64,000 nucleotides of DNA from positions 19,901 to 83,900 of the forward strand of contig WTXI01000161.1 of NCBI GenBank assembly GCA_022376515.1. The letters are read 5' to 3'. Numbering within the stretch: the stretch's first letter is position 1; the number at the start of each line of letters is the position of its first letter. This stretch comes from Lactifluus volemus (lineage: Eukaryota > Basidiomycota > Agaricomycetes > Russulales > Russulaceae). The notes beneath the pieces were generated by a model. The model searched no databases and was not told the origin of the DNA. It worked only from the letters and a program-made list of their open reading frames with translations. Position numbers and translations under genes: made by a program. Positions 12,175-47,113 of this stretch are shown here, piece after piece.

Positions 12175-12895
12175 AAACGATTCTATCCCTTTGTTTTTTA
12201 CATGCCATTGCCATTACTCTGTCTGAACTGGTCTTACTATCGCAATGGGAGATCATACAGAAAGAGAAAATCCACCAGCTTGAGACATCGTGATTTAGTG
12301 ATATGAGATATGGGTTAGGGTGATCCGGGGTCCCTGTGGAGCCAAGTACGTAAGAAACGCGTCAGAGCCCGACTTTCATCGAGTCTCCACCGTCGTTGGC
12401 CCTAACCTTGCTTGCGCGTGGCACTATAGTCAACTCAACAATCAGCTTGTTGCCTGATGTGACGATGTTGAGAACTACTACAGTCCGTTGTGTCACCCTC
12501 ATTATTCCCTTTAATTACTCGTTTTTTCTATGCACACACCACGATAGGGGGCCTGGCACGGGACCATGACCCTTCATGTGAGTACAACTCAAGGACGGGA
12601 ATGTGGTACACGGAGAACACAGTAGAAAAATTTACGCGAGTTTGTAGCAAAAGACATTAAAAAAAAGTACTCATTGGACAAAAACATACCAGATGCTAAG
12701 TGTGTCGGAAAATGTGTTATGGATACAGCTTATACATCACTGTTCGTGTGCGTAGGTAGCCAGCCATGAACTTGGGCAGGGTGTGTTCGTGAGTATGAGC
12801 ATGTCATAATGAGTATGTCATGATTACGCACAACGCCATCAACAGAGGTGATGCAAGCAGTACGGTACAAACCCACCAACTTTGATTGCGGAGGG
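12175..12895. other. Intergenic between NLR-like gene and KDZ element
   Basis: No gene or motif was recognised. It ends with GATTGCG at 12884-12890, which is repeated at 33692-33698 outside the opposite inverted repeat and may be a target-site duplication. Confidence 0.4.
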
Positions 12896-13219
12896 ATCCA
12901 TGTAGCCTAATTACATTGTTTCCTGATAATTTGTACACGACGTGTTATAATGTCCCAGGCACCTTACCACATTACAATACGCCAATTACCACCTATACCC
13001 ATTATAGTCATAATACATTGTAAAGTCTTCATAATTATAATGTCACTGACATTACAGTGCGCCGACATTGTAATGTCCCAATTATGATGCACCTACATTG
13101 TAATGTGCCAACATTATAATGTCATCAACATTAAATTGCGCCTACATTACAATGTCAGTGACATTATAATGTGCTCACATTATAATGCACCGACATTATA
13201 ATGCGCCGACATCATAATG
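12896..13219 (+). repeat. Left terminal inverted repeat (324 bp)
   Basis: Starts ATCCATGTAGCC and is the exact reverse complement of 33363-33686, with no substitution or indel that I could find. Identity stops after CATCATAATG, where the array units begin to differ. It holds scattered variants of the array palindrome (CATTACAATG, CATTGTAATG). Confidence 0.9.
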
Positions 13220-14530
13220 CGAGCACATTATAATGCGAGCACATTATAATGCGAGCACATTATAATGCGCCGACATTATAATGTGCTCATTGTAATGTCC
13301 CAATTATGACGCACCTACATTGTAATGTGCCGACATTATAATGTCATCAACATTAAATTGCGCCTACATTACAATGTCAGTGACATTATAATGCACTGAT
13401 ATTATAGTGTCACGGACATTATAACACGCACACATTATAATCTGACATTATAATACGCTGACATTATAATGCGCCGACATTATAATGTGCTCACATTATA
13501 ATGCGAGCACATTATAATGTGCCGACATTATAATGCGCCGACATTATAATGCGCCGACATTATAATGCGTTGACATTATAATGCGTCGACATTATAATGC
13601 GCCGACATTATAATGCGTCGACATTATAATGCGTCGACATTATAATGCGTCACATTATAATGCGTCAACATTATAATGCGTCAACATTATAATGCGTCGA
13701 CATTATAATGTGAGCACATTATTAATGCGTTGACATTATAATGTGAGCACATTATAATGCGCCGACATTATAATGTGCTCACATTATAATGCGCTCACAT
13801 TATAATGCGCTCACATTATAATGTGCTCACATTATAATGCGCTCACATATAATGTGCTCACATTATAATGTGCTCACATTATAATGCGCTCACATTATAA
13901 TGCGCTCACATTATAATTCGCCGACATTATAATGCGCTCACATTATAATGTCGGTGCATTATAATGTGTGTGCACATTATAATGCGCCGACATTATAATG
14001 GGCACATCGGCGCATTACAATGTGTGCACATTATAATGCGCCGGCATTATAATGCGCCGGCATTATAATGCGCCGGCATTATAATGGCGCATTATAATGC
14101 GCCGGCATTATAATGCGCCGGCATTACATTATAATGCGCCGGCATTATAATGCGCAAAACGGCATTATAATGCGCCGGCATTATAATGCATTATAATGCG
14201 CATTATAATGCGGCATTATAATGCGCCGGCATTATAATGCGCCGGCATTATAATGCGCCGGCATTATAATGCGCCGGCATTATAATGCGCCGGCATTATA
14301 ATGCGCCGGCATTATAATGCGCCGGCATTATAATGCGCCGGCATTATAATGCGCCAACATATAACGTACACACATTATAATGCGCACACATTATAATGCA
14401 CCACTTGTAATGCGCCAAACATTGTAATTCCAGGGACATTATAACGCGCAGAAATTATAATGTCAGTGACATTACAATGCACCTAAATTACAATGTAGGC
14501 GTATTATAATGCGCTTATAATGCGTGGAAA
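13220..14530 (+). repeat. Left array of 16-bp CATTATAATG palindrome units
   Basis: Dozens of copies of the 10-bp perfect palindrome CATTATAATG separated by 6-nt spacers. Outer spacers are mainly CGCCGA, TGCTCA, CGAGCA or CGTCGA; inner ones (about 14040-14350) are CGCCGG, so that the AT palindrome alternates with a GC palindrome (GCGCCGGC). Most spacers contain one or two CpG. A few units are shortened. The inner edge fades into degenerate units near 14530-14600. Confidence 0.92.
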
Positions 14531-15157
14531 TTGCAATGCAGATACATTTCAACACGGAAACACTACAATTCGGAAACACTAAATGTGAGGATATTACAAT
14601 TTGGGGACACTACGATACAAGGACACCTCCGGATGCCACGTGCCAATACTTGTCAAGCCCCAACTTTCACGTTTCGCCCCCTCCATGCTGAGACCTCTCC
14701 GATAGTCCCCCCAACTGTCGTGACCGAGAACTGCTCATACCACTTTCATATTACTAATCGCCCCACGTTCCGAGATCTGCGGACGCTTGAAGGATCCAGA
14801 AACCATTTAATTTGTTTCACTTTCAATCAAATGTCCCAGTATTGTCTTTGTCTCGTGTTATTTCACTTTCTTACTGCACATTCTCTTACATTCCACTTAA
14901 AAGGCGGCCAAAGAGGCCTTCAATGATCAAGTTGCGACTCTAATTTGACCTCCCCATTTCACGCGTGTCCATTATCCTTTGCCTCACCCATACCTCTCAC
15001 CACCACTGTTGTCATGTGTAGTCAACATCAACATATAATGTGATTACAGTAGAAGTACGCAAATAATCTGAAAATTTATTCCGAGGGAATCCATGCCCAA
15101 CCTGGCCTAGGCGCTAGTGAGTGAGACAGACACCCCAGAGCAAACTGCCACGGTGAC
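14531..15157. other. Array edge to accessory gene 3' end, no gene
   Basis: Decayed array units to about 14620, then unique sequence without recognisable coding features up to the stop codon of the minus-strand accessory gene. Confidence 0.4.
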
Positions 15158-17314
15158 TTACTTTCTGACTTGTGTTGGTAATTTGGTAGGATCAATGACT
15201 GTATGAACGCCGCGGTTGGGCTTCTTGGATTGACGTCCACTCTTACGTGGCGCATCACTAGTGAGTGCTGCACGCGTCACCTCCGAGTCATGATGTCCCC
15301 TTGAGGCTTCTTGAAGTTCCCCATCCGTAGCGGCAGCCTTCCGCTTTGTCAACTTCCTTTGTGCAGTCTTGGTTTTGGTAGGAGTGGTAGATGGCGGATT
15401 ACACAATGGTACAGGTGACGTCGTGGGAGGAGGAGCAGGGGAGTCGGGGACAGGGTTCAAGGGAGCAGGAGGCATTTCCGCAAAGGAGGCCAGCAGCTGT
15501 GCCAAAGAGGTCTCCGAGTCGTTGAAGGGTATGACGGGGTCAGTTGGATTCAAAAGAATAGGATTTGAGGGAGGAGCTGGGTCACAGCACTGGGTAGTTA
15601 GAGATCGTCCCGAAACCGAGTGATGAGCCAAAGAGAATAGACAGGGAGGAAATCAGCTCACAGGATGTGACGACCCAGCTTCAGGCTCGAAGGAGAATGG
15701 GGGCGAGTTAGTCCACGAATCCGTGGTGTAAACATGGTCTCCGTCCGGAGACCCCCGGCCAGGAGGCTGAGGAAGCTCTCCTGAGCACGACTTGGAATAG
15801 CGGGAAAAGCGGTTACGGGCCCCAGCACGGGAGAGCCCGGGCCTGAGTCAGCTCCATCCCAATCACCACGGTTTCTCCTCACTTGCAGATCAGTGTTGTT
15901 CGTACCGTTTCCTAGGTCTCCATCGTCATCTTCATCGTCATCGCCATCGCCATCGCCATCGGCGGCATTGATTGTTTGATCTGGTTCTGGGGTCTCAGCT
16001 GGGTCCGTACTACTTCGGCCTGTGCGTTGAGTTCCCTCATTGCCCTCTGTGTTTTCTTCCTTTTCAACAAGTCGAGTGTCATCTCCTGAAGTGAAGACTT
16101 GAGCATTCGCCCAGGATCTTGGCATGAACACGGTGACTCACTGAAATATGCCGATGCGTATTTCTTCATAGTTTGAAGGTGCTCTGCCCACTCCGTTTCA
16201 AATGCCTCCCCTATCGTCTGTTTGATGTGGCCCCCGGACGTGTCAGATTGCACACTGCGGAAGGGTGGTAAGCTTTCAGGAAAACATTTCATTGCATGAT
16301 ACTTACGCTTGCATTTGTAGGTCTCCTTCATGAGGAGAGACGGCTGTGATAACAACAATCCCCCCTATCCACTCACCAAGCTCTTTTGCCAATGCGGGGA
16401 GAAAGTGGTTCGCCATTTCCCAAGCGCTTTCGGAGCTCGGGCTGGATTTGATTATTATACTCGCTTTCTAAGCACCGAAATTGGCAACTTACTTGTCCGT
16501 ACTAAGTGACTTTGCGGATTTCAGTTGGTTATCCCATCTTATCAGCGCTTGCTGGTGTTCCATCTCAACCTGTACTGTGAGCTCTTCACGGAAGGCTTCA
16601 TCTTCACCGCACCAGTGAGCTTTGATGAGTTCCGTGTAGTTCTTTAACCGCTCGTTCTCGTCAAAGCCTGTGGACTTGAACCATCTGTTGAACCTCCCCT
16701 TCCACTCGTCGTCACAAAGGATATCAGAATATTCATCTAGGACTCTGCGTTTCCTAGGTGGCCGCATGATTCTTGAAGTGATGAAGGCATCGATGAGCTT
16801 CAAAACAACGGGTGTCCGGGAACGGTTGTCCTTTTGATTGTTCCGGTACCACGTGCTAAGTTTCTCGTTTTGCACCGTAAGACACAGTGCATCGCAAGTA
16901 TAATAATGGCCTACTCACTTGTCGAAGCTTTTCACGATATTCATTGCGCCGATCATCCTCGGCCGATCGCTGTTCTTCGGGGAATGTTGTGATTGGCACT
17001 GGTTTCAGGTTCGCTTCCGTCATGTGGTCCGGAGGGTTCTCGCTGATATCGTAGTCATACCCAAATTTTTCTATGAATTGGTATGTCAGGCGAGTATAAA
17101 ATATTCCCGCTGCTGGGGGATTGGGTTCTGCTTTGTACGCATTGCACTTGTCCTCTAGGAAGGCGAGCTTTATGCCTGTAAAGTGGCTTGGAGGTCCACG
17201 ACGTCGTCCTGTGTCCTCGTCCCCATCCTGGTGAGTCGCCTTGCACTTGGAGTGTTTACCTTTTGGTGGTTTTCCCCCCACCTGAGTAGCCATTGGTTGA
17301 CTTGGACGTGGCAA
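15158..17314 (-). CDS. Accessory gene inside the KDZ element, unknown function (at least 5 exons)
   Basis: The minus-strand gene starts at ATG 17314. Readable exons: about 17314-16917 (with FLEDKCNAYKAE and FYTRLTYQFIEKFGYDYDI), about 16863-16489 (STWYRNNQKDNRSR, then WKGRFNRWF and ALIRWDNQL), a Cys-poor middle region about 16440-16140, an acidic DGDGDGDDDEDDDGD stretch about 15990-15900, and a last exon about 15595-15158 with a Pro/Thr-rich part and a basic end (PRKSGRQSKKPNR). Donors and acceptors (GTGAGT..AG) join these in open frame. It resembles multi-copy hypothetical proteins I remember from Agaricomycete genomes with the same order: FYxKxTxxxxxKYGYD, WYR, acidic linker, basic tail. 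No catalytic motif was identified. Its place between an array and the transposase suggests a transposition or DNA-binding partner, or cargo; that is inference. Confidence 0.6.
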
Positions 17315-18196
17315 GAGGGTCAGAACGTTTATTCAGTCAAGTGAGGTATAAAGGACATTTGAAACAGGGCCAAACAGCTGCGTGCTAGTCCCTGGTCAAG
17401 TGTCCATCACCACTGATCGAATACACCGCTTACAGATTTGTACATGGCCGCCTTTTTTCGTCCCCCTATAGTGAACCTCATCATCTCAGTTGCAGTATCC
17501 GTCGGCCATCGGTAAAACTTCGAAAATTTTAGCCAAGGAGAGCGTTACCACTGCAGGGGAACCTCGGAATGAGTCCGAGTCCTAGTGTCTTGTCTCTGCA
17601 GTATCAATGTCACCGCCATATGTCATGTGGTTGCCCCTGGAAATTTGCCGGCGCTGCAAGGTTAGGTCGCGCCGTCATAGGCATTCTCAGGTTGATCTTG
17701 GTTCTGCCTCTGACTCTGTGCCGCTTTCACTATGTAACTGAGCAAGGCAGTTGTCCACGTCTGCAGGGCCCTCCTGCTAGTGCCCTCCTCTTCTCGGGTC
17801 TCCCAATGACTTGTGGCCATAGTCTGCTTCATCAAATGAAGCAGTGCTCTAATGAAGATCTTCTTGTGTGTGGTCTCTGTTCAAGTGAATGTGTCGTGCA
17901 CATGGTTCAAACTTGTCAACCGTCCGAGTCCAAGGAGCCAGTCTTGGTGCATTTCACCACTCACTTCTATCTAACTCAGTGACGAAACACTTTGTGTATG
18001 ATGCCAGTTCGAGTCTTCTGATGTTGCGGATATGGCGTGCAGGCTTCATCGGGTGAAGCAGTCCTCACTAGAAATTTCTAGTGTGTTACAGTTCAAGCTT
18101 GTCTAACACCCGGCCAACTATTCACATCCCTTGTTTTTTCGTTCCCCCTCCCTGAACATCGGTCGCCTTCCCGTTTACTGTACTCGCCCAGTAAGC
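17315..18196. other. Upstream region of the accessory gene, no gene recognised
   Basis: An open frame at 17569-17982 has no recognisable motif and uneven composition, so it was not called. The stretch next to 17314 should hold the accessory gene promoter. Confidence 0.35.
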
Positions 18197-19850
18197 ATGT
18201 CTTCTCGTAATGACCTTAGTGTGGGATATGAGCACACCAGAAGAAAACAGGTACGTAGTACGTACTCACCTTACTTTTTTTGCGACATTGGCCCCCATCT
18301 CTCTCCCCTCCCACCCTCACCCCGCGCGATGCGTCCTATGTTTTCCACTCTTAGGAATCAGCCTGAGGAATAAAGCCAAACAATGCGTCAAACCCAAGAC
18401 ATCCCTGAGTTTCGGGGGGCTGAGGAAGAGATAACTTGACTCAGTATGGTATCACTTTCCCCAGGTTTAACTGTCAGCTTTCGGAAGGAATGAGCAAGTC
18501 TTCAAATCAAAAAGTCTCGTCTTAGGTTCAGAACTCCCATGCGCAACCTAATCGGAGCCCGCCCTGAGCGGCAACATAGCTATCCACTCCCGCTCCCGCC
18601 ACCCACTGAATCGTACGCCGATGCCACAGTCATGCGAACTTCTCCAAATATGACTCCTATTACTGCTTCGCATGTAAAAAATACTGCCTCTAACTCTATC
18701 ATATCTGCGGAACTGGCCCAGCTTGACGACTACGAAACTGACTTATGAGAGTCTATCGCAAATACCGAGAAAAGGGGCTGGTTTGCTGACTTTAGAGAAA
18801 GGCTACTAGTAGATAGTGTCGCCACTTTTCTCGATGAAAGGTACGATCTTGAAATGGTTTAACCCTTCTTTTTGATCCCTTAGTGTCCAGTTCCTCAGGT
18901 GAGACAACTGGAGGAGTATATCTCGATATTGAAGGAACTCGCGACATGATCTCCACCCGGCGTCGTGCCGAGAATGAAGGTGACCTCTCAAATTTCTTCG
19001 GTTCCCTTCCCGTTACTTCAAGTTCGCATGAGGCAACAGAACAACTGGACAATATGGGATGCATCATCCCTCGGTTTAATGCAGAGGCTACACGGAATGA
19101 TTGATATGCTGCGCGTGCCAACCGTCGTGCCCTTAGGCTAACGAACAGTCATCAGGCCAAAGATGAGGAAGGCTACTCCACAGATGCCACACTACCATCG
19201 TCTGATGCCACCGATTATCTCGCCACCCTCCAGCAATGGAACCAATTCTAGGTCAATTTCGCACAATCGCCTGCATGACGTATCTCTAATCAAACTTGGT
19301 TCTAGGACTCGAAGGATACAACGTTGGTCTGCTAGAGAATGGTCGCGATGGACGTGCACCCGGTCTACCAAATGGCATGGGCACTCCAGCATTCTTGGAC
19401 TACGGCGGCCCTACGCTGGATCGCAGTCTTTTGGGCCACCATTGTCGTTGACGAGGTCTCTAAACCCCCTTATTCAGTTGAATTGCAATCGCGGCTCAGA
19501 AGTGCAGCCCTGGTACCATCGAAAATCAGGCATAATCGGGATCGCCATAGTGGCCGTCCTCATGATCATCGGCAGTGCAATTGGCAACAGTCGTTGACAC
19601 CCATCATAGCTGTCACTCTCGCAGTGGAAGCATAAATGGCCCGAATGGCACCATCTCGAGCAGCAATGGCTCAACCGGCACAAACATCAGCACAAATGTA
19701 AGGTCAGCTCTGTGCCCACCCTCGACTTCGACCAATTTCGTCCTGACTCAGATTTGGACATCTAGACTTCATCTAATCTCACCTTTGCCTCCGACCCGTT
19801 TCGACTTCCTCTACATCAATCGACTCCGATGCGTCTTTGGCTAAAACAGG
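18197..19850 (+). pseudogene. Decayed reading frame inside the KDZ element
   Basis: Protein-like segments are broken by stops and frame changes. ATG 18197 opens a short exon (MSSRNDLSVGYEHTRRKQ) with a GTACGT donor. Around 18539-18840 a segment reads YETDL, stop, then ESIANTEKRGWFADFRERLL. Near 18883-19250 follow acidic/Ser-rich segments (AKDEEGYSTDATLPSSDAT), and near 19330-19700 a Gly/Asn/Ser-rich part. I do not recognise the family; it may be another transposon-borne gene. Coding decay contrasts with the intact accessory gene and transposase nearby. Confidence 0.35.
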
Positions 19851-20447
19851 ACTATTGACCAGCAATTTTGAACGTGTTCATTTGTATATACCAAGTACAT
19901 ACCTTACGAAGCATCCCCTTTACACTCTCACGTTCCATTTTTTGACCCTACGTGCGACGTCTCGGACTGGTTCACGGAACTTACTATTCTCGTAGACTAT
20001 GGAAACTTATCTTAGATCTACTGTAAAGTAGATAAAAGGCCAAGCTAAATGGCCAGTAAGCACATTCAATACATCTCTTGTCGATTCGGATCACTCTTTG
20101 TTTGCTTCCTAAGTTCTGGTCTCTCTCTCTCGCCGCCATCTAGATCACATCGTGCAGTTCTTTCACTCGTAACACTCTAACGCCTCATGCTTGCCTCATG
20201 CTTGCATGTCCGAGTGCCTCGTGCCCCCACTATCTCCGAGCCTTCCTGTGGGCGTTCTCGGTATTCCCGCGCATGTCCCTCTTGGTTCCCTCTTTGGCAA
20301 CCACTCTGCGCCCCCTTCGAACTTGCCCGTGCTCCTTAGAGTATGTTCACCAGATTGAGTGGCTCAAATGGCACCGGCTCAAGTAGTAAGAGCACAAATA
20401 GCACAATTGGAGTGACTTGTCGTGGCATGGAGTAGCTGTATGGTACA

Positions 20448-20466
20448 ATTGTAATACATTACAATG
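20448..20466. promoter_or_regulatory. Array-like palindrome upstream of the transposase start
   Basis: ATTGTAATACATTACAATG lies about 96 bp upstream of the KDZ ATG. CATTACAATG (20457-20466) is one of the variant units found inside the 324-bp inverted repeats. It may be a single transposase-binding site used in autoregulation, or chance in AT-rich promoter DNA. Confidence 0.3.
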
Positions 20467-23027
20467 ATGCGATTGGACTCGAAAGTTTGACCCGCATCGC
20501 GCTTCTTCCACTATCAATTGGGGCTGCTTTCCACTCTACAACTTGAGCTTGTCAGGTAGTCATGCCACGGAAGAAGCAAAGGACAAACAATCTCCAAATC
20601 GTCAATCTCTCTCAGCTTAATGCACCAGTAGTAGATCGTGTTCCTCTGAGGACCAATACCGCAGGACGGACACGCACTATCATTACCCATCTACCTGCCA
20701 CTGTCAAGGAGCCTATGCCTGAAGATCTCATTTCTGATGTACCGCTAGTCGGCTCATCTGATTCCCCCATACCTGAGCCTATCCAAGTCCTGGGCCCGAC
20801 ACATGCAAAACGCTACGAGAACTCGGTATGGGCAACTATTTATTATACCTAATATACCATGACTCGGGCTGATGGCGTTTCACTGGCAGGATGTGCCACT
20901 GGAAACATGGAAACAACATCGCCAGCCTTACCTTGATGCTTGTCTTTCTCTGGAGGGCCGTGGACACTATTCTTATGTGTGTGCAAGTGGTTCCTGCCAG
21001 GCATCGGATTCTCAGTTTCGCTGTCGCGATTGCTTCGGAAATCGGCTCTATTGTCAGCCATGCATTGTGAAGGGACATCAAAGTCTTCCTTTGCATCGCA
21101 TTGAGGTGAGCTCACAGCATCCCACACCTATCCGAGCCCTCCATGGTATTGACAACCCATATTGTAGGAATGGAAAGAGACGCATTTTAAGGCCACATCC
21201 CTCAGACAGCTAGGCCAGCACATTCAGCTTGGGCACGGAGGGTTGCCCTGCGATTTTCGTACTCAGGCTCGTGGCCACAAAGATTTTGTTGTCCTTGACA
21301 CGAACGGAATTCACTTGGTCAACATCAGCTTTTGTGGTTGCCTTGGTGCAGCCACCCACTGTGATCAACTCCTTGAGGTCGGTTGGTGGCCATCCACACC
21401 TTTGGAGCCTCAAACCGCTGCAACTATGTCCGCTTTACGATCTTTTCATATCACGAATCTCCAGGGTCATGTCTCACCAACGGATTTCTATCGCTGCCTT
21501 GAACAAACAACATGTGGCGATGGCTCAATCAACCTCCCTGTAAGGATCTCGTTTTTCTCTAGCATCCTTGTGTTCTCGTTTACAATAGTGTCAGGATCGA
21601 CTTGCGCAATGGATGGTCATGGTTCGGGAATGGCGGCACATCAAGATGGGAAAACGTGCAGGCCGAGGTCATGACCCTGCCGGCTTCCATGAAACATCAG
21701 CAGGTGCCCTTGTCATTCCGTGTCGCGCTTGCCCGGTTCCTGGAATCAATCTCCCACAGAATTGGCACATTGCACCTGAAACCACTCGGTTTGTCGCATA
21801 GTTCCTTTCAAGTTCTTAGCGTTGTTATTGAACCACTAGATTATAATAAGGTGGCTCTATGATCTTATCCTTTCTATGGACGCAAACTTTAGACAGAAGG
21901 CTCGACTGAGATCTGGTCAGTCCGACAAGGACGCCCTCGGTCCTGGTTGGGGCACGTTTGTGTCAAATGAACCTTATCTAGATTATGTATCGCAGTTTGC
22001 GAATCAGGACGAGGTGTGCCTGTTCACATGGCGTCAATAATTAATTGTCCTACTCGTTATAGATTTCCCATTGTGTTGGATTTGCGGCGCTGTGGTCAGC
22101 AAATACTAAGCGCTCGAAGGGCCTTCGTGCAACTGGAATCGCAGCTGTCAGCTGCGCTCGTCATCAGATGTACCAACCAAATGGGATGGGGGATTTGCAG
22201 ATTGGGGAAAGGTGAGTGTCCTTCCGAGGGACAATGGCGACATTCTGGACATTTGATGCATAGGTACTGCAATATGGACTATCTCCTCATGTCAAGCTTA
22301 GCCTGTACCTCAGTTCCCCGAGTCATCATATCATATGACATCGGGTGCCAATGGGGAATCAATTTTCATCGCCGCGTTGCCAAGATGCCGGACCACCTTC
22401 GAGTACCTCTGTCACAGAAGATAACACCCCTCGTTCCGAAATTCCATCTTGAAGCTCACACAGTTAAATGCCACGCGCAGTATTCCTTCAACTATGCTGT
22501 GGGGGTTGGACGCACCGATGGCGAGGGTGTAGAGAGGAATTGGTCATTACTCAACAGTATTGCGTCTTCAGTTTCAATGATGGGTCCTGGTGGCCGGTGG
22601 GATACAATGGACGACTTTTGCAACTTTGCAAACTGGCGTAAGACAGTTGATCTTCGTGCGTAACCTCAAGCAATCGAAAAGATGCAGTATTCTAACTTTA
22701 TCCCACTGGCAGCATCCACACTGTTTCGGAAGCTATCTTTAGCAATTCCCCAGGCGATCATCCATCACCGGGCGTTCCTGGCATTCAGCGAGAGTCTTCG
22801 GGTCAATCACGCAAAGGAGATGGCTGATTGGGAAGATCAAGTTACAGATTGGGAGCGCAATCATAATGCATACTGCCCATATGATCTCCCAGATCAAAGT
22901 GAGTTATTCTCTTTCCCTGTATTACATCGACATATCAAGACATATTCCTTTACTACTAGCGATCACATTTGCGGACGTGAAGCGCCAATTATCACAACAA
23001 GAATATGACAAGGCCATGAGGGGGGAA

Positions 23028-23426
23028 TGTTGAAGTATGGACATTGACCAGCCCTAAAGTGGCTGCGCACGGACCATCGACGCATCGTAGCTGATCGTTT
23101 CTACTATAGCCTTTTTCTGCCCTTTCATACCTTACTTGGTCTACCTCTATCCCTCTTCACTCTTTTCTGGTAGATTCTACTCCACTTGGGAGCACCTGGG
23201 CACATTTTATTTTCACATGGCTCCATAGCCGATACTGTGTATTTAAGCCTGTCGCAAGAGCGGCAGCAAACCTCAGCGTTTTATCTTCTCGCGCTGAGGT
23301 AAGTTTTCTCTCACTTTTCACTTCGTAGCCTAGAGCACTTATAATGTATTCTAGTCTTAAACCTTTTCAGGTTAGCTACGAAATAGCAGCGTTTTATCTT
23401 CTCGCGCTGAGTCTTAAACCTTTTCA
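23028..23426 (+). repeat. 5' LTR of the copia element
   Basis: 399 bp, starts TGTTGAAG and ends CCTTTTCA. It holds a TATTTAAG box near 23239 and an internal duplication: GCGTTTTATCTTCTCGCGCTGAG occurs twice, and so does TCTTAAACCTTTTCAG. Confidence 0.92.
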
Positions 23427-23485
23427 GATTACGAGACCTGAGTCTCTGCCTGAGCCTACCCACGCTGTCGCCGATCACACGAAGT

Positions 23486-26400
23486 ATGAGCCAAGCCGCT
23501 GCAGCGCAAGCCGCTGCGCATACCGTTGCACCGCCGCAACTCTTCAACCCAACCGACGACGACGTTGTCGCCGGACCTGCTGTTTCTTTTCACGGTTCCG
23601 CTCAAGGTTCCGTTTACGGCCCCGCTCACACTTCCGTTCATGGGTCAGCCCACGGTTCTGTCCAAGGTTCCGTCCACGGCTCCTCCCAAGGTTTCGGTCG
23701 CGCCTCTGCCTTGACCTCGGCGGCTAGTACTCCAGTCAGTACACCTTCGCCTTTTCAGCACTACGCAATCCCGCCTATGCACCATCACGCTGCGATCCCC
23801 CCGATCCCACCGGTGCACCGTCAAGCCGCGATTCCGTGGGCGCACCCACAACCTATGGTCCCGCCTGCTCACCCGCCTCCTTTGGTGCCTCCAGCTCACC
23901 ATGTGCCCCCTCTCGCTCCGCCACTCCACTTGCCTCCTGCGATGCCTGGGCCAACAGTCATATCCCAACGTTATGACATCCCTCCGCTCGAGCAAGATGG
24001 CAGTAACTTCTCAGTATGGCAATTCCACATGCGTGTAGTCTTGAGGAGCTACAAACTCCTAACCGTCCTTATCGATCCGCGTCCGCATCCCTTAACCTTC
24101 CCAGCTGAAGCCGCTGCCTGGGATGAAAAGGACCAACAGGCGTTCTCCCTCATCGCGTTGTCGCTCACCGGGGAACCGGCTCACCTTATTTTCCACGCGC
24201 AGACAGCCAAGGATTGCCTAGACTGTCTTGCCGCTCGTTTCGAGGGCCGAGGAAGTCACAAACTTTCTCACCTGATGACTCGCCTCTTCAGCACACCCCT
24301 CAACGACGCCGAACCCCTCGAGCCACAAATCAACGCCATGATCGATGCTTCGCACCGCCTGGCCGAAGCTGGCTCACCTTTCACCAACCAGCAAATTGCG
24401 CTTGCCATTACCAACGCCCTCCCTGCACCGCATCGGATGCTCAAAGTCGTTCTCAATAACCTTAGTCCAGCTGAACAAACTCCTGAGAACATCAAACTTC
24501 GCATCCTCACCGACGAGGACTCGCGCATCCGCGAATCGGGCGAGGGGGCAGCCGCGTTTTACGCCAAGGCTGCCAAAAAGGGTAAAGACGGCAAAAAGAA
24601 AGCTGACAAAAAGAGTTCGGACAAGGACAAAAAGAAGGGAGAGCAGAACAAGCGGAAGGACCAGCAGAAGAAGCGTTGTACCCACTGCAACATCAATGGT
24701 CACGATGTCAGTGAGTGCCGGAAGCTCAAGGCGCAGAAGGAGAAGGACGCGAAAACAGCTACGGCCACGCCAGCGACTACGTCCACGTCAACGCCTACCT
24801 CCCCTTCTGCCCCCGCTTCCGCGAAAGTCGCTATAGCATCGCTTCCTGACGAGGAAATCTACCTTTACAGTGCTCATCCTCCCCAGTCCCGTCCGCTTCT
24901 CCAGTCCTGGATACTTGACTCAGGCGCATCCCGCACCATGTCGTGCAACCGCTCGTGGTTTACGCACTTTGCCCCCCTCTCTACTCCCATCAAAGTCACA
25001 CTTGGCGACGCCCGCTCTATCTTGGCCACTGGTATCGGTCGAATCCGCGTTCGCATGCACGCCGATAACAAGTGGAAAACTGCGATATTCCAAGAAGTGC
25101 TGTTCGTCCCTGACCTTCACGGCAACCTCCTCTCCGTCTCGTACCTTGCTCAACACGGCGCCAGCTTGCTCTTTAGCGGCGCCTCGTGCTCCCTTCGTGA
25201 CAAGACAGGAACTGTTACCTGTCAAGGCTACATGTCCTCAAACCTCTACATCATGGACATCCGAACTGTCACTTCGGAGAAGGTACACGTTGCGAGCGTT
25301 CCGACTTTCCCGCGAGAGAATGAGGAGCTGCCTGCACCTGGTGAAATTGCTTTCCTCACCGAAGGCGCTGGCTCCTCCGCTGACCTTGCAACCTGGCATC
25401 GTCGTCTCGGTCACGTCAACGCCGAGACTGTCGTGCGGATGGCCGAGAAGGGACTTGTCAACGGGATGACGATCGAGGGGACCACAGACGTCACCACGAT
25501 TTGCGAGCCTTGCCTAGCCGGAAAACAGAGCCGCGTTGATATCGCGAAATCGACCAACACACGGGCCACTGAAGTCCTCGGTCGTGTTTTTTCCGACATC
25601 TGCGGCAAATTGCCCACTCAATCCCGAGAGGGATACGAATATTTTGCGACCTTCACAGACGACAAGTCGCGAAAGGTATACGTCGCGGGACTTCGCCTAA
25701 AGTCTGACCTACTTAAGCATCTGCAAATTTTTGTGGCCCGAGTCGAGAGAGAAACGGGGAAGCTACTTAAAGTGCTACAATCGGATGGTGGAGGCGAATA
25801 CACGGGTAACGTACCCACTCAGTATTTCGAGGAGAAAGGTATTCAGCAGGAAATTACGACCGCTGACACACCCCAACACAATGGTGTCGCCGAACGCATG
25901 AACCGCACCCTCTTGGACAAGGTGCGGGCGATGCTCAACGACGCCGATCTCCCCTTTTCTTTCTGGTACGACGCCCTCCAGTATGCCGCCATCCTACACA
26001 ATAGCTCCCCCTCCGCTGCGCTTCCGAACGTTACTCCAGAAGAGTCTTGGAGCGGCAACAAGCCCGACGTCTCCCGACTCCGAATTTTTGGATGCAAAGC
26101 CCACATGCACGTTCCCGAAAGTTATCGCTCAAAATTATCTTCGCATTCCAAGCAGTGCACGTTCATCGGCCTCGCGACAAATTACAAAGCTTTCAAGCTG
26201 ATTCACCGCGCCTCTCACAAAATTTACCATTCTCGCGATGTTGTGTTCGACGAAGGGGGCCCAAAACACGAACGAGTCGTAATCGACGATGACGACAACA
26301 TCGACTACGAACACGACAATGGAGACGCCACGGTCGATGGAGATGCCGCGCCACCCGCGATTCCTCCTCCCGTACCTCCCTCTGTCACTCGCCCAACGCG

Positions 26401-28048
26401 CACAATTCGTGCACCGATCCGCGACGACGACCCTCGCTACGATGTAACCTCGTATAACCGCACTCCTGTGCGCGCTAGTGTCGCCGAGTCTGAAATCGGG
26501 AGTGATCCACGCACTTTCGATGAGGCGATGGCTCGACCAGACGCTGCCGAATGGAGGCTCGCGTGCGAGACGGAACGAATCGCCTTCGAACAAATGGGCG
26601 TTTACGAAGTTGTACCGCGCCCTCGTGGCCGCAAGGTAGTCGGCAGCCGTTGGGTATTCCGCGTCAAACGCGGACCCGATGGCAGCATACAAAAATACAA
26701 AGCTCGAGTCGTCGCCCAAGGCTTCACACAGATCGAGGGCATCGATTTCGACGAAACCTTCGCACCCGTCGCGAAACTCGCCTCACTCCGCGCCATCCTT
26801 GCGATCGCTGCGGAAAAGGACTTTGAGTTGCAGCAGATGGACGTCAAGTCAGCATATTTGAACGGTACGCTCAAGGAGGAGATTTTTATGAACCCTCCTC
26901 CAGGCTTCGATATCCCTGACGGCATGGTATTACGACTAATCAAAGCTGTCTATGGAACGAAGCAGGGCGGACGTGTTTGGTATGAGAACATCAAAGCGCG
27001 TCTCACCTCCATGGGTTATCAGAATACCCAGTCCGATCACGCCGTCTTCACCCGTTTTGCTGACCCACACACCTCTATCATCGCGCTCTATGTCGACGAC
27101 ATCACTATGGCCTCTAGCAGCCTTCAGGAGATTCAAAGGGACAAAGCCCTGCTCTGCCAGTACTATGAGATGACCGATTTGGGCGATCTTGCCTGGATCC
27201 TCGGTATGCATGTCACTCGCGATCGTGACGCCGGGTGGATCTCGCTCTCGCAAGAGAAGTACTCGAATGAGGTCCTCGAACGCTTTGGAAAATCCTCCAT
27301 TCGTCCCGTCTCCACCCCTGCCATCGCCAATGAGCATCTCCGTAAACTGTCACAACCGGAGTCTGATGCAAAACTTTATCAAAGCGCCGTAGGAGCACTC
27401 ATGTACTTGATGGTTGGCACACGCCCTGACCTCTCCTACGCCGTGTCGGCTCTCGGACGGCACAACGCAACGCCTGGTCCACCTCATCTCCACTCTCTTG
27501 AGCGCGTCTTCAAATACCTTCGCGGCTCTACGTCTTTGCGCCTCATCTTTCGACGCGGCACCCCCGAAGGAACTGTTCTACGTGGCTTCGTGGATGCCGA
27601 CTGGGCTAGTGACATCAATGATCGGAAATCAACCTCCGGTTTTGCCTTTATGCTCGGAGGGGGTGCAATCAGCTGGGGATCTAAGAAGCAAACGTCTGTC
27701 GCCTTGTCTAGCACAGAAGCCGAGTACGTTGCAGCCGCATACGCCGCGAAAGAAGCCGTTTGGCTCCGACGCCTCCTTCGAGAGCTCAACCTCGACGTAA
27801 CGCTCCCCACCATTCTGCACATGGACAACCAGTCCGCGATCGCCATCGCTCGAAACCCCGAGTTCCACGACCGCACGAAGCATATCGATCTTCGCCACCA
27901 CTTCTTACGCGAGAGGGTCGCCGCCGGCGACATTGACCTCACCTACGTCCCCACCGACGACCAGATCGCCGATGTATTCACAAAGGGACTGGTCCGCGAG
28001 AAGCATGGGCGGCTCACGCGCGAGCTAGGCTTGCACTTTCAGGTCTGA
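23486..28048 (+). CDS. Copia gag-pol polyprotein (1520 aa, open)
   Basis: Single frame in copia order. Gag is Ala/Pro/His-rich at the N-terminus, with a Lys-rich stretch before a zinc knuckle, CTHCNINGHDVSEC (near residue 397). Protease ILDSGAS near 474. GAG pre-integrase HRRLGHVN near 635. Integrase catalytic residues in FTDD (near 722), LQSDGGGEY (near 764) and AERMNRTL (near 801). Reverse transcriptase has MDVKSAYLNG and LYVDD (near 1201). RNase H has DADWASD, STEAEYVA and MDNQSAIA. No stop or frameshift. ATG 23486 is the first in frame after the LTR. Together with identical LTRs this suggests a competent element. Confidence 0.93.
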   Translation: MSQAAAAQAAAHTVAPPQLFNPTDDDVVAGPAVSFHGSAQGSVYGPAHTSVHGSAHGSVQGSVHGSSQGFGRASALTSAASTPVSTPSPFQHYAIPPMHHHAAIPPIPPVHRQAAIPWAHPQPMVPPAHPPPLVPPAHHVPPLAPPLHLPPAMPGPTVISQRYDIPPLEQDGSNFSVWQFHMRVVLRSYKLLTVLIDPRPHPLTFPAEAAAWDEKDQQAFSLIALSLTGEPAHLIFHAQTAKDCLDCLAARFEGRGSHKLSHLMTRLFSTPLNDAEPLEPQINAMIDASHRLAEAGSPFTNQQIALAITNALPAPHRMLKVVLNNLSPAEQTPENIKLRILTDEDSRIRESGEGAAAFYAKAAKKGKDGKKKADKKSSDKDKKKGEQNKRKDQQKKRCTHCNINGHDVSECRKLKAQKEKDAKTATATPATTSTSTPTSPSAPASAKVAIASLPDEEIYLYSAHPPQSRPLLQSWILDSGASRTMSCNRSWFTHFAPLSTPIKVTLGDARSILATGIGRIRVRMHADNKWKTAIFQEVLFVPDLHGNLLSVSYLAQHGASLLFSGASCSLRDKTGTVTCQGYMSSNLYIMDIRTVTSEKVHVASVPTFPRENEELPAPGEIAFLTEGAGSSADLATWHRRLGHVNAETVVRMAEKGLVNGMTIEGTTDVTTICEPCLAGKQSRVDIAKSTNTRATEVLGRVFSDICGKLPTQSREGYEYFATFTDDKSRKVYVAGLRLKSDLLKHLQIFVARVERETGKLLKVLQSDGGGEYTGNVPTQYFEEKGIQQEITTADTPQHNGVAERMNRTLLDKVRAMLNDADLPFSFWYDALQYAAILHNSSPSAALPNVTPEESWSGNKPDVSRLRIFGCKAHMHVPESYRSKLSSHSKQCTFIGLATNYKAFKLIHRASHKIYHSRDVVFDEGGPKHERVVIDDDDNIDYEHDNGDATVDGDAAPPAIPPPVPPSVTRPTRTIRAPIRDDDPRYDVTSYNRTPVRASVAESEIGSDPRTFDEAMARPDAAEWRLACETERIAFEQMGVYEVVPRPRGRKVVGSRWVFRVKRGPDGSIQKYKARVVAQGFTQIEGIDFDETFAPVAKLASLRAILAIAAEKDFELQQMDVKSAYLNGTLKEEIFMNPPPGFDIPDGMVLRLIKAVYGTKQGGRVWYENIKARLTSMGYQNTQSDHAVFTRFADPHTSIIALYVDDITMASSSLQEIQRDKALLCQYYEMTDLGDLAWILGMHVTRDRDAGWISLSQEKYSNEVLERFGKSSIRPVSTPAIANEHLRKLSQPESDAKLYQSAVGALMYLMVGTRPDLSYAVSALGRHNATPGPPHLHSLERVFKYLRGSTSLRLIFRRGTPEGTVLRGFVDADWASDINDRKSTSGFAFMLGGGAISWGSKKQTSVALSSTEAEYVAAAYAAKEAVWLRRLLRELNLDVTLPTILHMDNQSAIAIARNPEFHDRTKHIDLRHHFLRERVAAGDIDLTYVPTDDQIADVFTKGLVREKHGRLTRELGLHFQV

Positions 28049-28055
28049 GGGGGTG

Positions 28056-28454
28056 TGTTGAAGTATGGACATTGACCAGCCCTAAAGTGGCTGCGCACGG
28101 ACCATCGACGCATCGTAGCTGATCGTTTCTACTATAGCCTTTTTCTGCCCTTTCATACCTTACTTGGTCTACCTCTATCCCTCTTCACTCTTTTCTGGTA
28201 GATTCTACTCCACTTGGGAGCACCTGGGCACATTTTATTTTCACATGGCTCCATAGCCGATACTGTGTATTTAAGCCTGTCGCAAGAGCGGCAGCAAACC
28301 TCAGCGTTTTATCTTCTCGCGCTGAGGTAAGTTTTCTCTCACTTTTCACTTCGTAGCCTAGAGCACTTATAATGTATTCTAGTCTTAAACCTTTTCAGGT
28401 TAGCTACGAAATAGCAGCGTTTTATCTTCTCGCGCTGAGTCTTAAACCTTTTCA
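28056..28454 (+). repeat. 3' LTR of the copia element
   Basis: 399 bp, same sequence as 23028-23426 by eye. A G-rich polypurine stretch (CTGAGGGGGTG) precedes it directly after the gag-pol stop. Confidence 0.92.
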
Positions 28455-29802
28455 GGGAAACTCCGGCTGATTATGAATATTTGAGCCCAGGGGATTTCAT
28501 CATTATCGGGTTGGAACTGGAGGGTATCCAGTACGTCTTTCATATGTTGTTGAGGTCGCACTCATTCCTAAAGCGCAAACTAGGCAAGACTTGATTCTCA
28601 ATGCCAAAATGCCAAGTTCCACAGCCCGTGAAACAGCCCTGTTACGTCAACGAACTCGTCTACTCAAGCAGATGGAACGCTTCATGGTTGTGCGTGAGAA
28701 GTATCTCCCTGGCCTATCCATATACCTTGCTACACTCCCTCCTCAGCCCGGGGCATCTAATCCCTCCGCTGAATCCATCCCCCTCCACCTTCCCTCTTCC
28801 CTCCCAGCGCATAAACGTGCTGAAATTATTGTTCCAAACCTTGACCATATCGAAGAGGAACTACGTGTCGCGCAGGCATCAGATGCCCTGGTCCAACTTC
28901 GGCTCCAGCTCACGAAACGAACCTATGCTGCTCGGTACAAGGGACGAAATATTTGTTCACAGAACCACTACACACGTTTCCGTGAGTTGCAAGACCAAGT
29001 TGAAAACAAAATCAAGGCATCCCAGCTCAAGTACAACGTAGCAAGAAGCGCACTTCTAAATCTCCGTGGACCTGGTCCTTGGGAGAACTCACTTAAGGAA
29101 TTGCACACTGACCATATCCGAGGCCTAGGGGAACATTCTCTGCGAGCAGAGGAGCAAGAATCGGATCGCCAGATGCAGATCCTTGCGGGAGTGCAGTTGT
29201 CTAGCAGTTGGAGTCTCCAAGACATTTCTAGTATCCTCGAGAAGCCTCTCCCACCTACTAAATTCAACCCAAACCTTAGTTGCGGAGATGGTACACGAAA
29301 ACCCTCGTGGATTTGGTATAGTACGACAGGTAAAGAGATTGACGACAATGACACGCAAGCCTGTATTTGTCTTCCAGTACCTTGGAAACCATGACCTTCT
29401 GACTGACTGATTCTCTCAGATCTTCGCGTTGAGTGGCTGCGATGCCGTGCCAGGGCCGCACGATGGAAGGAGGAGATTCAACTCGTCGAGGAGGAGATGC
29501 GACGCACTCTCTCATTCTGTGAATGGAAAGCATCGTGGTGGGATGAACGGCATCAAGCCCGAGCCTTGGTACCCTTTCACGTCGCCGAAGGAGTTGCCGC
29601 TTATGCTGCTGAACAAGCTGAGGCTGAGCGTCAGCGCGCATTGCAATGGGCAGTTCAATGGACAGAGATTCGACAGCGTGCAGCGACTGTGTTACACAAA
29701 CATTTGAACGACTCAGAACCTGAGGATAGTATTTCCATGCCAATGGACACGTTTGATATTGACACTGAGGGTGATGGTCTTAATAGTGATGTCGACTTCT
29801 AA

Positions 29803-32134
29803 TGTTGTGTAGTCGTTGTACTATCTAGCAATCAATCATGTTATGTGTCGGTCGGTATACATGTTCGTCATCACGCCCATCATTCCTAGCCAGAGGCGCG
29901 ACACCTTACTCAGGGGAAACAGCTTTGGTCTGGCCCATCAAGCTGCATCAAGACGCAGCCGATTGCCTAGGGCCAGGGCATTTCCTTTTCTGGGGCGTCT
30001 CGTGTCTCGATCACTGTTCCCCCCCTTTTTTTTCTTTCCATCGCGACCATTAGACAGATGCCAATATCGCGTGTGTGGCGGTTATATTGTCGGTAAAGCC
30101 CTCGACGACAGGAAGCAGATAACGGCGGTAACCTTGCACACATTCCGCGATGTAAACAGAGCACAACTCTTTGATATTAATAAGCAGTTTGGGAGGTCAG
30201 CTGAGAATTATCATCAGGGGTAGGACGGTAGAAGACAGGAGACTGTCAAAATGGAGACGACATGGTCCATAAGAGAGAGATAGGGGTTTCTAGATAGCTT
30301 TGTGTCGATTTTGAATAAGCTCAATGGGTCGGGCATCCACGACAATCGGCGGTTGAAACTATCGGTGAACCGCTCGGTGCGCAGCACGTGCATGCAGTGC
30401 GCAACTGCTGCAACAACGCTCGACGTTCTTCCCGTAGACTGCGAAGACGGACTGCGCTGATAATCGGCGGTTGAAGCTACCAGTGAACTGCTCGGTGCGC
30501 AACACGTGCATGCACCCTGTCATGAGTCGCCAACCAATCAGAAGAGCCGACTGCGCGATCCGCCAATCAGAGCAGGAGGACGTCCCTCTTTTAATATAAC
30601 TAGCGTAGACCCGTGCTTCGCACGGGGCTCTCAGCCATTGTCGCCACGTTTCTCGGCTGCCGCAAGCTGGTGTCTTGTGGACGATGATGTCATTAGGCAA
30701 GATCTGGTGCTCGAAATGCCTTTCACGGAAAACAGGGGCTAGCTTTCGTGAACGCTCCAGAAAACGCGTTCAGAAACATGGTCGGCAACTGGAGCAAGAC
30801 AGTGAAAGAAAAAGAAGGAAAACTGAGAAATAGGAGTCGAACGTGCGAGTCGGAGTCAAATAGAAATCATGTGCACGATTATATGCAGACAGCCCCTGAT
30901 GCACCGCTCAGCTGGTGGTTTCAGCTGCGGATCGCTGGAAAAAGATTGTCCTCGTCAGCGTGATCGTGTTGACAGGGCAAGGGCATGACCCCGCGCCGGC
31001 TCCTTTAACGAACGGGCCACCTGGCCACAACGTGGGCCAGAGTCTGCGGATCCTTTGCGCGAGAGTCGGGCCACAGCGTGAGCCCAGAGTCTGCGGATCT
31101 TGAACGGTTCCTGCACCCCACACCGACCAATGAGAGTGCCCATCGAGCTACATCCTGAGCAGAGCCTGCGCATCGTGTTGACAGGTCAGGAGCACGACCC
31201 CGCGCGGACCAATGAGGGCTGGCCGACGGGGGCTGGTCCCGCGATGAGGGAAGAGGCGACGGAGGGGATGGAGGTGGGAAGAAGTCAGGTGCACGGCCAA
31301 GTGAGGAACGACCAAATGAGGCAGTTGAGGGGTCCGAAGTCTGCCATCAGTGATGTCATCCGCAAGAAAGTGCTTCCCCAACTGCCGTTTTGAGACAGCA
31401 CACGTGAGGAGACAGGGGGAGAGAGAAAACACTGAGAGCGACGAAAGTTGTCGTTGTCACACGTGAAACGCCATCTCCAACTGCATTTTTGAGAAGGAAC
31501 ATGCGAGGAGGAAAGAGGAGTGAGAGCTCAGCAGAGGAAGAAAACTGGGATGTGACGGAGCTGAAAGTATTTGTCTGAGTTGTAGCAGACATTGTAAGTT
31601 GTCGAAACGTAAGGCAGAGAAAACGATGCAACGAACTGTATCATCAAAGATTAAAGTCGTGCACCTTCTTTCCGAGTCGGAACCAGGTTGCTTGTTGCCT
31701 TGTCGTTGCATTGAACCGTCTTCAGCGTGCCACCTGTTGTTGACCAATCAGGCCCGCAGCCCGCATTGACTGGTGCCGCCTGCCTCAATCAGCTGACTGA
31801 ACCGTCTTCGGCCTACCGCGTGCTACTCAGGGGAAGAAGTCAGACGGAGGCTGCAGCCCACTTTGGCAAACGCGATGAGGGAACAGGCGACGGAGGGGAT
31901 GGAGGGAAGAAGTCAGGTGCACGACCCCGTGCCGACCAATGAGAGCCGCCCGACGGCGGCTGCAGCCCGCTTTGGCAAAAAGCAGTCTTCCTTTAATATA
32001 TTACTGAGTTTGTAATCACTGGATCAGTTACAGATGCAGTTAATTGTATATTTGGATTTTAACACCCTCTACTCGGAGCCGAACCGACAGGTGACCTGAT
32101 GGTGTAGCGAAATTATCTTGGAGATCCATAGTAG
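29803..32134. other. KDZ element right part: GC-rich repeats, no gene recognised
   Basis: No coding region is supported. Contents: two 56-bp direct repeats (30341-30396 and 30459-30514) beginning AATCGGCGGTTGAA after the first two bases; a hairpin at 30610-30626; and a GC-rich stretch, about 30950-31980, of diverged repeated blocks (GAAGAAGTCAG, ACCAATGAGAG, CGACGGAGGGGATGGA recur). Confidence 0.5.
30610..30626. repeat. Short perfect hairpin CCCGTGC-TTC-GCACGGG
   Basis: A 7-bp GC-rich stem with a 3-nt loop follows the AT-rich run TTTTAATATAACTAGCGTAGA. It could mark the end of a small nested DNA transposon. Confidence 0.4.
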
Positions 32135-33362
32135 CCATATTACAATGTCAGTGGCATTACAATGTTGGCGCATTAGAAGTGGCACATTTTTGTGCATTAT
32201 AATGTGAGCGCATTATAATGTCGGTGAATTATAAAGTGAGCACATTATAATGTGAGCGCATTATAATGTAAGCGCATTATAATGTCGGCGCATTATAATG
32301 TCGGCGCATTATAATGTCGGTGCATTATAATGTGAGCGCATTATAATGTTGGCGAATTATAAAGTGAGCGCATTATAAAGTGAGCGCATTATAATGTCGG
32401 CACATTATAATGTCGGCGCATTATAATGTCGGCACATTATAATGTCGGTGCATTATAATGTTGGCACATTATAATGTCGGCGCATTATAATGTCGGTGCA
32501 TTATAATGTTGGCACATTATAATGTCGGCACATTATAATGTCGGCGCATTATAATGTTGGCACATTATAATGTCGGCACATTATAATGTCGGCGCATTAT
32601 AATGTCGGCGCATTATAATGTCTGTGCATTATAATGTCGGCACATTATAATGTCGGCGCATTATAATGTGAGCACATTATAATGTGGGTGCATTATAATG
32701 TGGGTGCATTATAATGTGGGTGCATTATAATGTCGGCGCATTATAATGTGAGCACATTATAATGTCGGCGCATTATAATGTGAGCACATTATAATGTCGG
32801 CGCATTATAATGTGAGCACATTATAATGTCGGCGCATTATAATGTGAGCACATTATAATGTCGGCGCATTATAATGTGAGCACATTATAATGTCGGCGCA
32901 TTATAATGTGCTCGCATTATAATGTCGGCGCATTATAATGTGCTCGCATTATAATGTCGGCGCATTATAATGTGAGCACATTATAATGTCGGCGCATTAT
33001 AATGTGCTCGCATTATAATGTCGGCGCATTATAATGTGCTCGCATTATAATGTCGGCGCATTATAATGTGCTCGCATTATAATGTGCTCGCATTATAATG
33101 TGCTCGCATTATAATGTGCTCGCATTATAATGTGCTCGCATTATAATGTGCTCGCATTATAATGTGCTCGCATTATAATGTCGGCGCATTATAATGTGCT
33201 CACATTATAATGCGCCGACATTATAATGTGCCGACATTATAATGTGCCGACATTATAATGTGCCGACATTATAATGTGCCGACATTATAATGTGCCGACA
33301 TTATAATGTGCCGACATTATAATGTGCCGACATTATAATGTGCCGACATTATAATGTCCTCA
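32135..33362 (-). repeat. Right array of 16-bp CATTATAATG palindrome units
   Basis: Same unit as the left array but inverted: CATTATAATG with spacers TCGGCG, TGAGCA, TGCTCG, TCGGCA or TGCCGA. Local runs of identical units (TGCTCG about 33060-33180, TGCCGA about 33210-33350) and a regular alternation of TCGGCG and TGAGCA (about 32740-32900) show recent unequal expansion. Composition differs from the left array although the adjoining inverted repeats are identical. Confidence 0.92.
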
Positions 33363-33686
33363 CATTATGATGTCGGCGCATTATAATGTCGGTGCATTAT
33401 AATGTGAGCACATTATAATGTCACTGACATTGTAATGTAGGCGCAATTTAATGTTGATGACATTATAATGTTGGCACATTACAATGTAGGTGCATCATAA
33501 TTGGGACATTACAATGTCGGCGCACTGTAATGTCAGTGACATTATAATTATGAAGACTTTACAATGTATTATGACTATAATGGGTATAGGTGGTAATTGG
33601 CGTATTGTAATGTGGTAAGGTGCCTGGGACATTATAACACGTCGTGTACAAATTATCAGGAAACAATGTAATTAGGCTACATGGAT
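33363..33686 (-). repeat. Right terminal inverted repeat (324 bp)
   Basis: Exact reverse complement of 12896-13219; ends GGCTACATGGAT. Followed by TGTTG and then GATTGCG (33692-33698), the latter also present outside the left end. Confidence 0.9.
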
Positions 33687-34220
33687 TGTTGGATTGCGCA
33701 GCTCTGGTTCCCTTATTAAATTGTTCTCTCGCGAGCAGCATACAATCAATGCTGATGAGTATGGAAGGGAAAACGATGGAGATGGTAACGCCGGTGGTCA
33801 AATGATTCAAGCTCTCAAGCTCCGGTATGCCGCTTTGGTCACGTGGTTCAGCGCAAGGTACCAAACAGGACAGTCACTTACCAGCGCGGAACTGCGCCTA
33901 TGCCGAGCGGGGCGCGCCGGATATCCAAAGTTTCTAAACCAGATCTCAAAAACCCAACGAGCCCAAATCAAAGCCGTGTAAGAAGATTGAGTGCATTTCT
34001 TGGCCTGCCCCAATTTTCAGTCTTAGTCTTACATAGCCCGAGCAGAGCACGTCCGTGCGATGGGAAAGGGTAGTAAACTCACGCAGTTGGTCAGATCGCA
34101 GGCTGCTCGGCTGTCCGGAGACGAGTGTTCGGAGAATGAGTGCCATGATCATATCATGAAGTGAATGTCTATCGTCCCTTCGTTGTCCCCACGCTAGATC
34201 AGAGGAACGATGTCGGGTGA

Positions 34221-46598: not shown

Positions 46599-47113
46599 TG
46601 TTACGGCTCGACTAGGGCCGGGTCCCAACAAGGGTTCTGGTTGTTCTGGTCTCTCCTAAGACCTGAGCTCAGGGACACTCCAAGTGTCGACGCGCTGAGT
46701 CCTGTGGTGTTGTAGCACAACCACCAAGCTTCGATGACCCTACTAGGGCGTATAGGAGGGTAAGAGAAGAGAGGGAAGAGGAGAGGAGAAGTTCTGTCTT
46801 TCTGGAGAGTGAAACAAGTCGATTTGAGTCAAAGCCGAAGCTGGGGTACAAGCTACTAGCTGAGGCCTATTTATACAGTTTATGCTAATTGTTCTACCAA
46901 ACTAGGGTGGACAATAGGCATGAGATCAAGAACAATAGGGGATGCGAACAATAGGGACTCGGAACAATAACACTGGACGGAACGAGACGAACAATAGGAA
47001 GTCAGAACAATAGAATCAGTCAGCACAATAAGAACGATGTGGAAGGGACGTCATCAGGGTGAGTAAGCGTGTTTAGGAAGCATAAGGTCCCACTTGTCCT
47101 GCATTCCGTAACA
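46599..47113 (-). repeat. Gypsy 3' LTR
   Basis: 515 bp, ends are the 8-bp inverted repeat TGTTACGG/CCGTAACA. In U3 it carries seven direct ACAAT motifs and one inverted (46887-47030). Preceded in element sense by the purine tract AGAGAGGGGGTAT (47114-47126). Confidence 0.92.

Follow-up and report, generated by a model that had tools for sequence, protein, structure and literature searches.

The 64-kb stretch of Lactifluus volemus DNA analysed here (the window; contig C70:19901-83900) carries a KDZ transposase gene between two inverted arrays of short palindromes, and it raises the question of whether these arrays belong to one transposon and, if so, what they do for it. The arrays are the ends of a single KDZ DNA transposon, a conclusion that is well supported by sister copies, target duplications, empty sites and the confinement of the arrays to the element. 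The features of the locus are collected in Table 1.

Table 1. Features of the KDZ element and its insertion site, in window positions
Feature	Position	Strand	Basis
7-bp target site duplication GATTGCG, left copy	12884..12890	+	single copy at empty site on C401
End-specific pentamer GAGGG at the left terminus, beyond the inverted repeat	12891..12895	+	common to 6/6 left ends: window, C466, C483, C591, C335, C324
Left terminal inverted repeat, 324 bp, exact	12896..13219	+	
Left array, 16-bp units (CATTATAATG + 6 nt), 64 exact cores	13034..14514	+	Tandem Repeats Finder, period 16
Second gene, predicted spliced, begins MATQVGGKPP; 3' exons uncertain	15163..17293	-	
Broken host-type gene fragment, between the two element genes	18749..19275	+	open relative C223:1439142-1439480, 84% amino-acid identity
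CxC2-KDZ transposase gene, split by Copia element in exon 9	20562..29802	+	intact counterpart in C466
Copia target duplication GGGAA, 5 bp, left	23023..23027	+	
Nested Copia LTR retrotransposon, 5.4 kb, outside the KDZ element proper; LTRs 99.5% identical	23028..28454	+	
Copia target duplication GGGAA, 5 bp, right	28455..28459	+	
Right array with 74 exact cores in 16-bp units, opposite in orientation to the left array	32194..33533	-	Tandem Repeats Finder, period 16
Right terminal inverted repeat, 324 bp, exact	33363..33686	-	
Right terminal pentamer TGTTG, end-specific	33687..33691	+	common to 6/6 right ends: window, C466, C17, C280, C591, C335
7-bp target site duplication GATTGCG, right copy	33692..33698	+	end comparison, empty site

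The sequence-only reading had described a 20.8-kb KDZ transposon at 12896..33686, bounded by perfect 324-bp inverted repeats. The repeats are indeed exact, and the element is the same one, but comparison of the ends places its borders at 12891 and 33691, since the constant end sequence extends 5 nt beyond the repeat on each side. These limits are set by the constant pentamers and by the 7-bp direct repeats outside them; the TGTTG pentamer is also present in C596, a relic. The larger size does not stand as the native one, because about 5.4 kb of it is a nested Copia retrotransposon with its own GGGAA duplications; without it the window copy measures approximately 15.4 kb. The name Copia was assigned from reading the open frame of the insert, without a family scan. 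The insert is young, with nearly identical LTRs and one long open frame (23486-28048).

The assembled genome (62.4 Mb, 628 contigs) was searched with the terminal repeat, as had been proposed from the sequence, and further copies with the same ends were recovered, together with empty sites. Seven full-length ends were found, two each on C70 and C466 and one each on C483, C17 and C280, and the 324-bp repeat is identical in all seven. C466 carries a second complete copy of 15,738 bp at a different site from the window copy; C483 and C17 each contain a single end, next to the sequence that borders the C466 insertion, and C280 contains a right end only. Outside the arrays, the interior stretches compared between the window and C466 copies match at 8,095 of the 8,099 bases aligned, apart from a few gaps of 1-4 bases, and the transposase gene is identical as well. 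All four two-ended copies of the element family and its short relatives are flanked by 7-bp target duplications (GATTGCG in the window, ATTATCT in C466, AGATTGG in C591 and CCCAAAG in C335). The site is uninserted in 3/3 related loci, namely C357, C591 near 16.6 kb, and C401; the C401 site contains exactly one GATTGCG, and the C357 and C591 sites differ by at least one base.

The flanks of the window insertion (12605-12890 and 33692-34386) form a repeated locus that is also present on C357, C401 and C591. There, part of the right flank sits on the opposite side and is inverted, so the window locus appears to be locally rearranged. Directly to the left of the element (8221-12174) lies a long open frame with many WD40-like repeats in 129-bp tandem units. 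Elsewhere in the window the same short-repeat pair occurs twice, 7.2 kb apart (46930-47034 and 54170-54274), perhaps as the LTRs of another retrotransposon.

Of the 138 occurrences of the 10-bp perfect palindrome CATTATAATG in the window, 64 fall in the left end, 74 in the right end and none elsewhere. In 100 dinucleotide shuffles the palindrome was found on average 0.04 times, with a maximum of 1, and inverted arrays by chance are thus ruled out. The exact cores extend over 13112-14398 and 32195-33470, roughly 1.28 kb per end, and the inward arrays of 1.2-1.3 kb described from the sequence, built of a core plus 6 nt, are confirmed with a period of 16. Neighbouring exact cores are precisely 16 bp apart in 45 cases on the left and 69 on the right, and the 324-bp repeat and the array overlap at 13112-13219. 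Across the element copies examined, 64 to 90 exact cores are present per end. Genome-wide, all 480 exact CATTATAATG-N6-CATTATAATG steps lie inside element copies (114 in the window, 134 on C466, 80 on C483, 75 on C17 and 77 on C280). An independent satellite is thereby rejected, and the earlier assignment of the array to the subterminal regions of one element is borne out by these steps along with the other copies, the 7-bp duplications and the empty sites.

Between the arrays, the expected KDZ transposase and second gene were both found, the former with PF18758 and CxC2, the latter on the minus strand. The transposase gene on C466 is uninterrupted, with 11 exons (intron positions placed by eye), GT-AG introns and no internal stop, and encodes 1068 residues plus stop; apart from the Copia interruption, the window gene is identical to it over 3,809 bp. 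The spliced C466 protein matches Pfam PF18758 (KDZ) over positions 1-217 of 217 (E 8.3e-63) and CxC2 PF18803 (E 1.2e-33). It has 324 database relatives at E 0.001 or better, the best-scoring from Moniliophthora roreri (47% identity) and the one with the highest identity from Amanita muscaria (64%, covering 60% of the query). In an alignment of the element transposase with nine relatives (n=10), D359 and E543 are invariant and D478 nearly so, and these three residues are the candidate acidic catalytic triad. The pieces of the second gene gave no Pfam match above cut-off, and its protein has no database relative at E 0.001, the query being a 399-aa splice prediction that may be wrong. The broken fragment between the two genes gave no Pfam match; given its similarity to an open frame on C223, it probably derives from a host gene that the element captured, and it may resemble a splicing-factor family. 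No TET/JBP domain was detected by Pfam in 20 ORFs of the element, and PF12851 had no match in the genome or in the control genomes, so that the negative is no proof of absence.

The element belongs to the KDZ superfamily, with a complete KDZ domain, a CxC-type cluster and conserved candidate acidic residues. Like the fungal members Kyakuja, Dileera and Zisupton, as far as the available accounts go, it is large, encodes a KDZ domain together with a cysteine cluster and has terminal inverted repeats a few hundred bp long; its 7-bp duplications are as reported for Kyakuja. Kyakuja of Laccaria is described in the available text as having 7-bp duplications and CA..TG termini without terminal inverted repeats, whereas the window element has GAGGG..TGTTG ends and 324-bp repeats (PMC12730594). 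An 8-bp target duplication is given there for Zisupton and for Zisupton-1_PGr (Dileera), against 7 bp in 4/4 two-ended copies here. Duplication length alone is a weak test, since the active Cryptococcus elements KDZ1-KDZ3, with terminal repeats of 139-241 bp, are reported in the accessible part of their description to have duplications of 4-8 bp, the lengths given for KDZ2 and KDZ3 (PMC12810828). The element is accordingly filed in the KDZ superfamily but not in Kyakuja, from which it is set apart by the latter's description.

The arrays of 64-90 exact palindromic cores per end distinguish the element from the fungal KDZ transposons, for which none are described in the available text of two accounts (PMC12810828, PMC12730594). 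In brown and green algae, giant KDZ elements are also larger than 10 kb and contain nested unrelated insertions and extra genes, according to the consulted portion of their description, in which array-built ends are not mentioned (PMC12477816). For Pristionchus Zisupton, terminal inverted repeats without target duplications are reported, and arrays are absent from the portion of the account available (PMC9297572). The sequence-only reading had stated that such ends are not known to be described for this family, and no description of array-built KDZ ends was found in the literature searched.

A precedent for ends of this kind is Galileo, a Foldback-like element of Drosophila; according to the available part of the source, secondary binding sites had been proposed for tandem repeats in transposon ends, such sites are present in at least one Galileo subfamily, and the trait is seemingly convergent (PMC3573991). 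Galileo belongs to the P superfamily and, according to the same partial source, has two or three copies of a repeat of about 210 bp, whereas the present element has a KDZ transposase, not a P-type one, and dozens of 16-bp palindromic units. By analogy, the array-built ends would work like the ends of Galileo.

The window element is a recently mobile KDZ-superfamily cut-and-paste DNA transposon with about 15.4 kb of its own DNA, and its arrays are probably, though with a fair share of doubt, multi-site transposase-binding ends as proposed for Galileo. Each end presents a platform on which palindromic sites follow one another every 16 bp. The transposase, with its CxC2 zinc cluster and KDZ domain, would most likely bind the CATTATAATG core as a dimer, perhaps together with the product of the second gene, and the array would load many transposase copies per end. 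The loaded ends of this very long element would then find each other and pair, and cleavage at the GAGGG and TGTTG pentamers would follow. The multi-site binding reading is favoured by the properties of the core: a perfect palindrome suited to a dimer, it is near-invariant, is spaced at about one and a half helical turns, is present at both ends and is retained in short relatives.

Array units turn over fast while the core varies little. From the element end to a common inner anchor, the left arrays of the window and C466 measure 1,710 and 2,074 bp, a difference of 364 bp, with 64 and 87 exact cores; the right arrays are 1,691 and 1,688 bp long yet just 94% identical, and the right array of C280 departs in length from that of the window by 128 bp. 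Differences also exist between same-site copies, at 2,074 bp (C466) against 2,103 bp (C483) on the left and 1,688 bp (C466) against 1,771 bp (C17) on the right; all of these lengths are assembly-based and may be affected by mis-sizing. Core positions have an entropy of 0.07-0.70 bits, with sites picked by core likeness, which favours low core values; spacer positions have 0.95-1.90 bits, with one exception, the final position of the spacer in right arrays, at 0.42-0.46. When core and spacer were counted in the same units, chosen only for having both neighbours with perfect cores 32 bp apart, differences from the consensus numbered 2/330 in the core against 49/198 in the spacer of the window left array, and 3/670 against 130/402 in its right array. 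Over the four arrays tested, about 25-34% of spacer positions are off consensus against less than 1% of core positions; Fisher-test P values for this comparison are too small, since array units are related by duplication and are not independent. It is plausible, from this pattern of a constrained core and free spacers, that the arrays bind transposase.

The main rival sees the arrays as passengers without a role of their own: slippage or unequal exchange would have multiplied short repeats within the long terminal repeats, and homogenisation alone would keep the core. It is consistent with the variation in unit number even between copies at the same site (C466 against C483 and C17). In the available parts of the literature, tandem repeats within the Galileo terminal repeats are also reported to grow and shrink (PMC3573991), and the terminal tandem repeats of Tetris to have given rise to satellite DNA (PMC4079207). 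Homogenisation alone should affect core and spacer equally, which the counts above contradict, and this origin is considered unlikely, all the more as short elements lacking a KDZ match have retained arrays, and arrays occur at both ends in each of the four KDZ families with mapped ends.

Two of these short relatives were characterized, one of 2.34 kb on C591 near 142.6 kb and one of 3.06 kb on C335, neither of which is among the KDZ matches of the genome. Both have the same end pentamers as the element and are about 87% similar to it over the outer 67-79 bp. Their arrays contain the same core (ATTATAAT, with ATTGTAAT/ATTACAAT) mostly at alternating distances of 17 and 14 bp, in a 31-bp unit; an alternation of 16 and 15 bp in C591 was ruled out. 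The core thus outlasts the unit around it. The sequence-only reading had taken a wide occurrence of the repeat and array without KDZ genes as the mark of an independent satellite. Only to a mild degree is this the case, since C591 and C335 have related ends and no KDZ match; both appear to be non-autonomous relatives that carry an array variant of their own, and not a free satellite. The short element on C335 contains a foreign insert with a poly-A tract between its arrays (L041:3560-5183), possibly retroposed. A lone left end of the related family, C324 (L043:4574 onward), matches over about 72 terminal bp and has no array; it sits in sequence resembling the WD40-repeat gene of window 8221-12174.

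The arrays could also act through DNA structure, with adjacent palindromes pairing as hairpins, the spacer as loop, and cruciform or fold-back ends being recognised by shape or driving array growth. About ten units (window 32640-32800), taken as single-stranded DNA, have a folding energy of -52.7 kcal/mol, compared with -20.1 (sd 2.6) in shuffled sequences (z -12.5), and the 2.3-kb C591 relative folds back with arms of about 1.1 kb at 81%. Constraint on structure alone would allow matched changes in adjacent units, yet the letters stay CATTATAATG, and the units of the C607 family are, by eye, not obviously palindromic. Recognition by structure is judged quite improbable, and the strong hairpin potential remains as a rival or as a helper in array growth.

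A regulatory role of the arrays, as promoters, silencers or boundaries that host factors recognise and not as transposition sites, is very improbable. The arrays do flank both element genes, and AT-rich palindromic sites are common targets of host factors; they are nevertheless located at the very ends, at both of them, and not at gene starts, and they persist in the short relatives without a KDZ match.

KDZ matches in the genome number 71 rows, often two or three per gene, and form about a dozen families by score grouping. Five families other than that of the window element were sampled, having been chosen before their repeats were seen (C224/C124, C89, C607/C446, C97 and C74). The C124 element (C124:23842-40033, 16.2 kb) has KDZ inside, and the family has inverted repeats and inverted arrays of a 75-bp unit; its 7-bp duplication (GATGACT) and CA..TG ends are Kyakuja-like, but it has inverted repeats as well. 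Eleven further copies start at the same place, and C379 and C373 contain two 2.77-kb pairs of similar ends (83-86% identity) without a KDZ match. On C89 the repeat ends at 58192-69520 (11.3 kb) carry, on either side, inverted arrays of a 21-bp unit with ATTGTR repeated at intervals of 10, 11 and 21 bp, and no target duplication was recognised there. In C607/C446, inverted ends lie 11.8 and 11.65 kb apart, with repeats of at least 491 bp and 121-bp units at both ends; no CxC2 was recognised in the five ORFs scanned, and tblastn gave no match between its KDZ protein and that of the window element. C97 contains 2.4 copies of a 338-bp repeat, and no long array was found within the 10 kb examined of C74.

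Of the six families looked at, the window element included, four have mapped ends, and all four have inverted repeats together with inverted arrays. The finding of array-built ends with other letters in three quite different families suggests that the arrays help the element to move. Tentatively, and with more doubt than confidence, array-built ends may be a general architecture of mushroom KDZ transposons, in which each family keeps inverted arrays at both ends while the unit is replaced. Array and transposase would then co-evolve, with a turnover like that of satellites, and it would be the arrays that let elements of 11-16 kb and larger join their ends.

With an intact gene copy, near-identical sisters, empty sites, short derivatives and ends defined by a 10-bp palindrome, binding of the protein to the core is directly testable in this system. 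Since one genome shows this layout with four different repeat units, multi-site ends seem to arise repeatedly, as in Drosophila Galileo, which would offer a natural experiment on the joint change of transposases and their ends.
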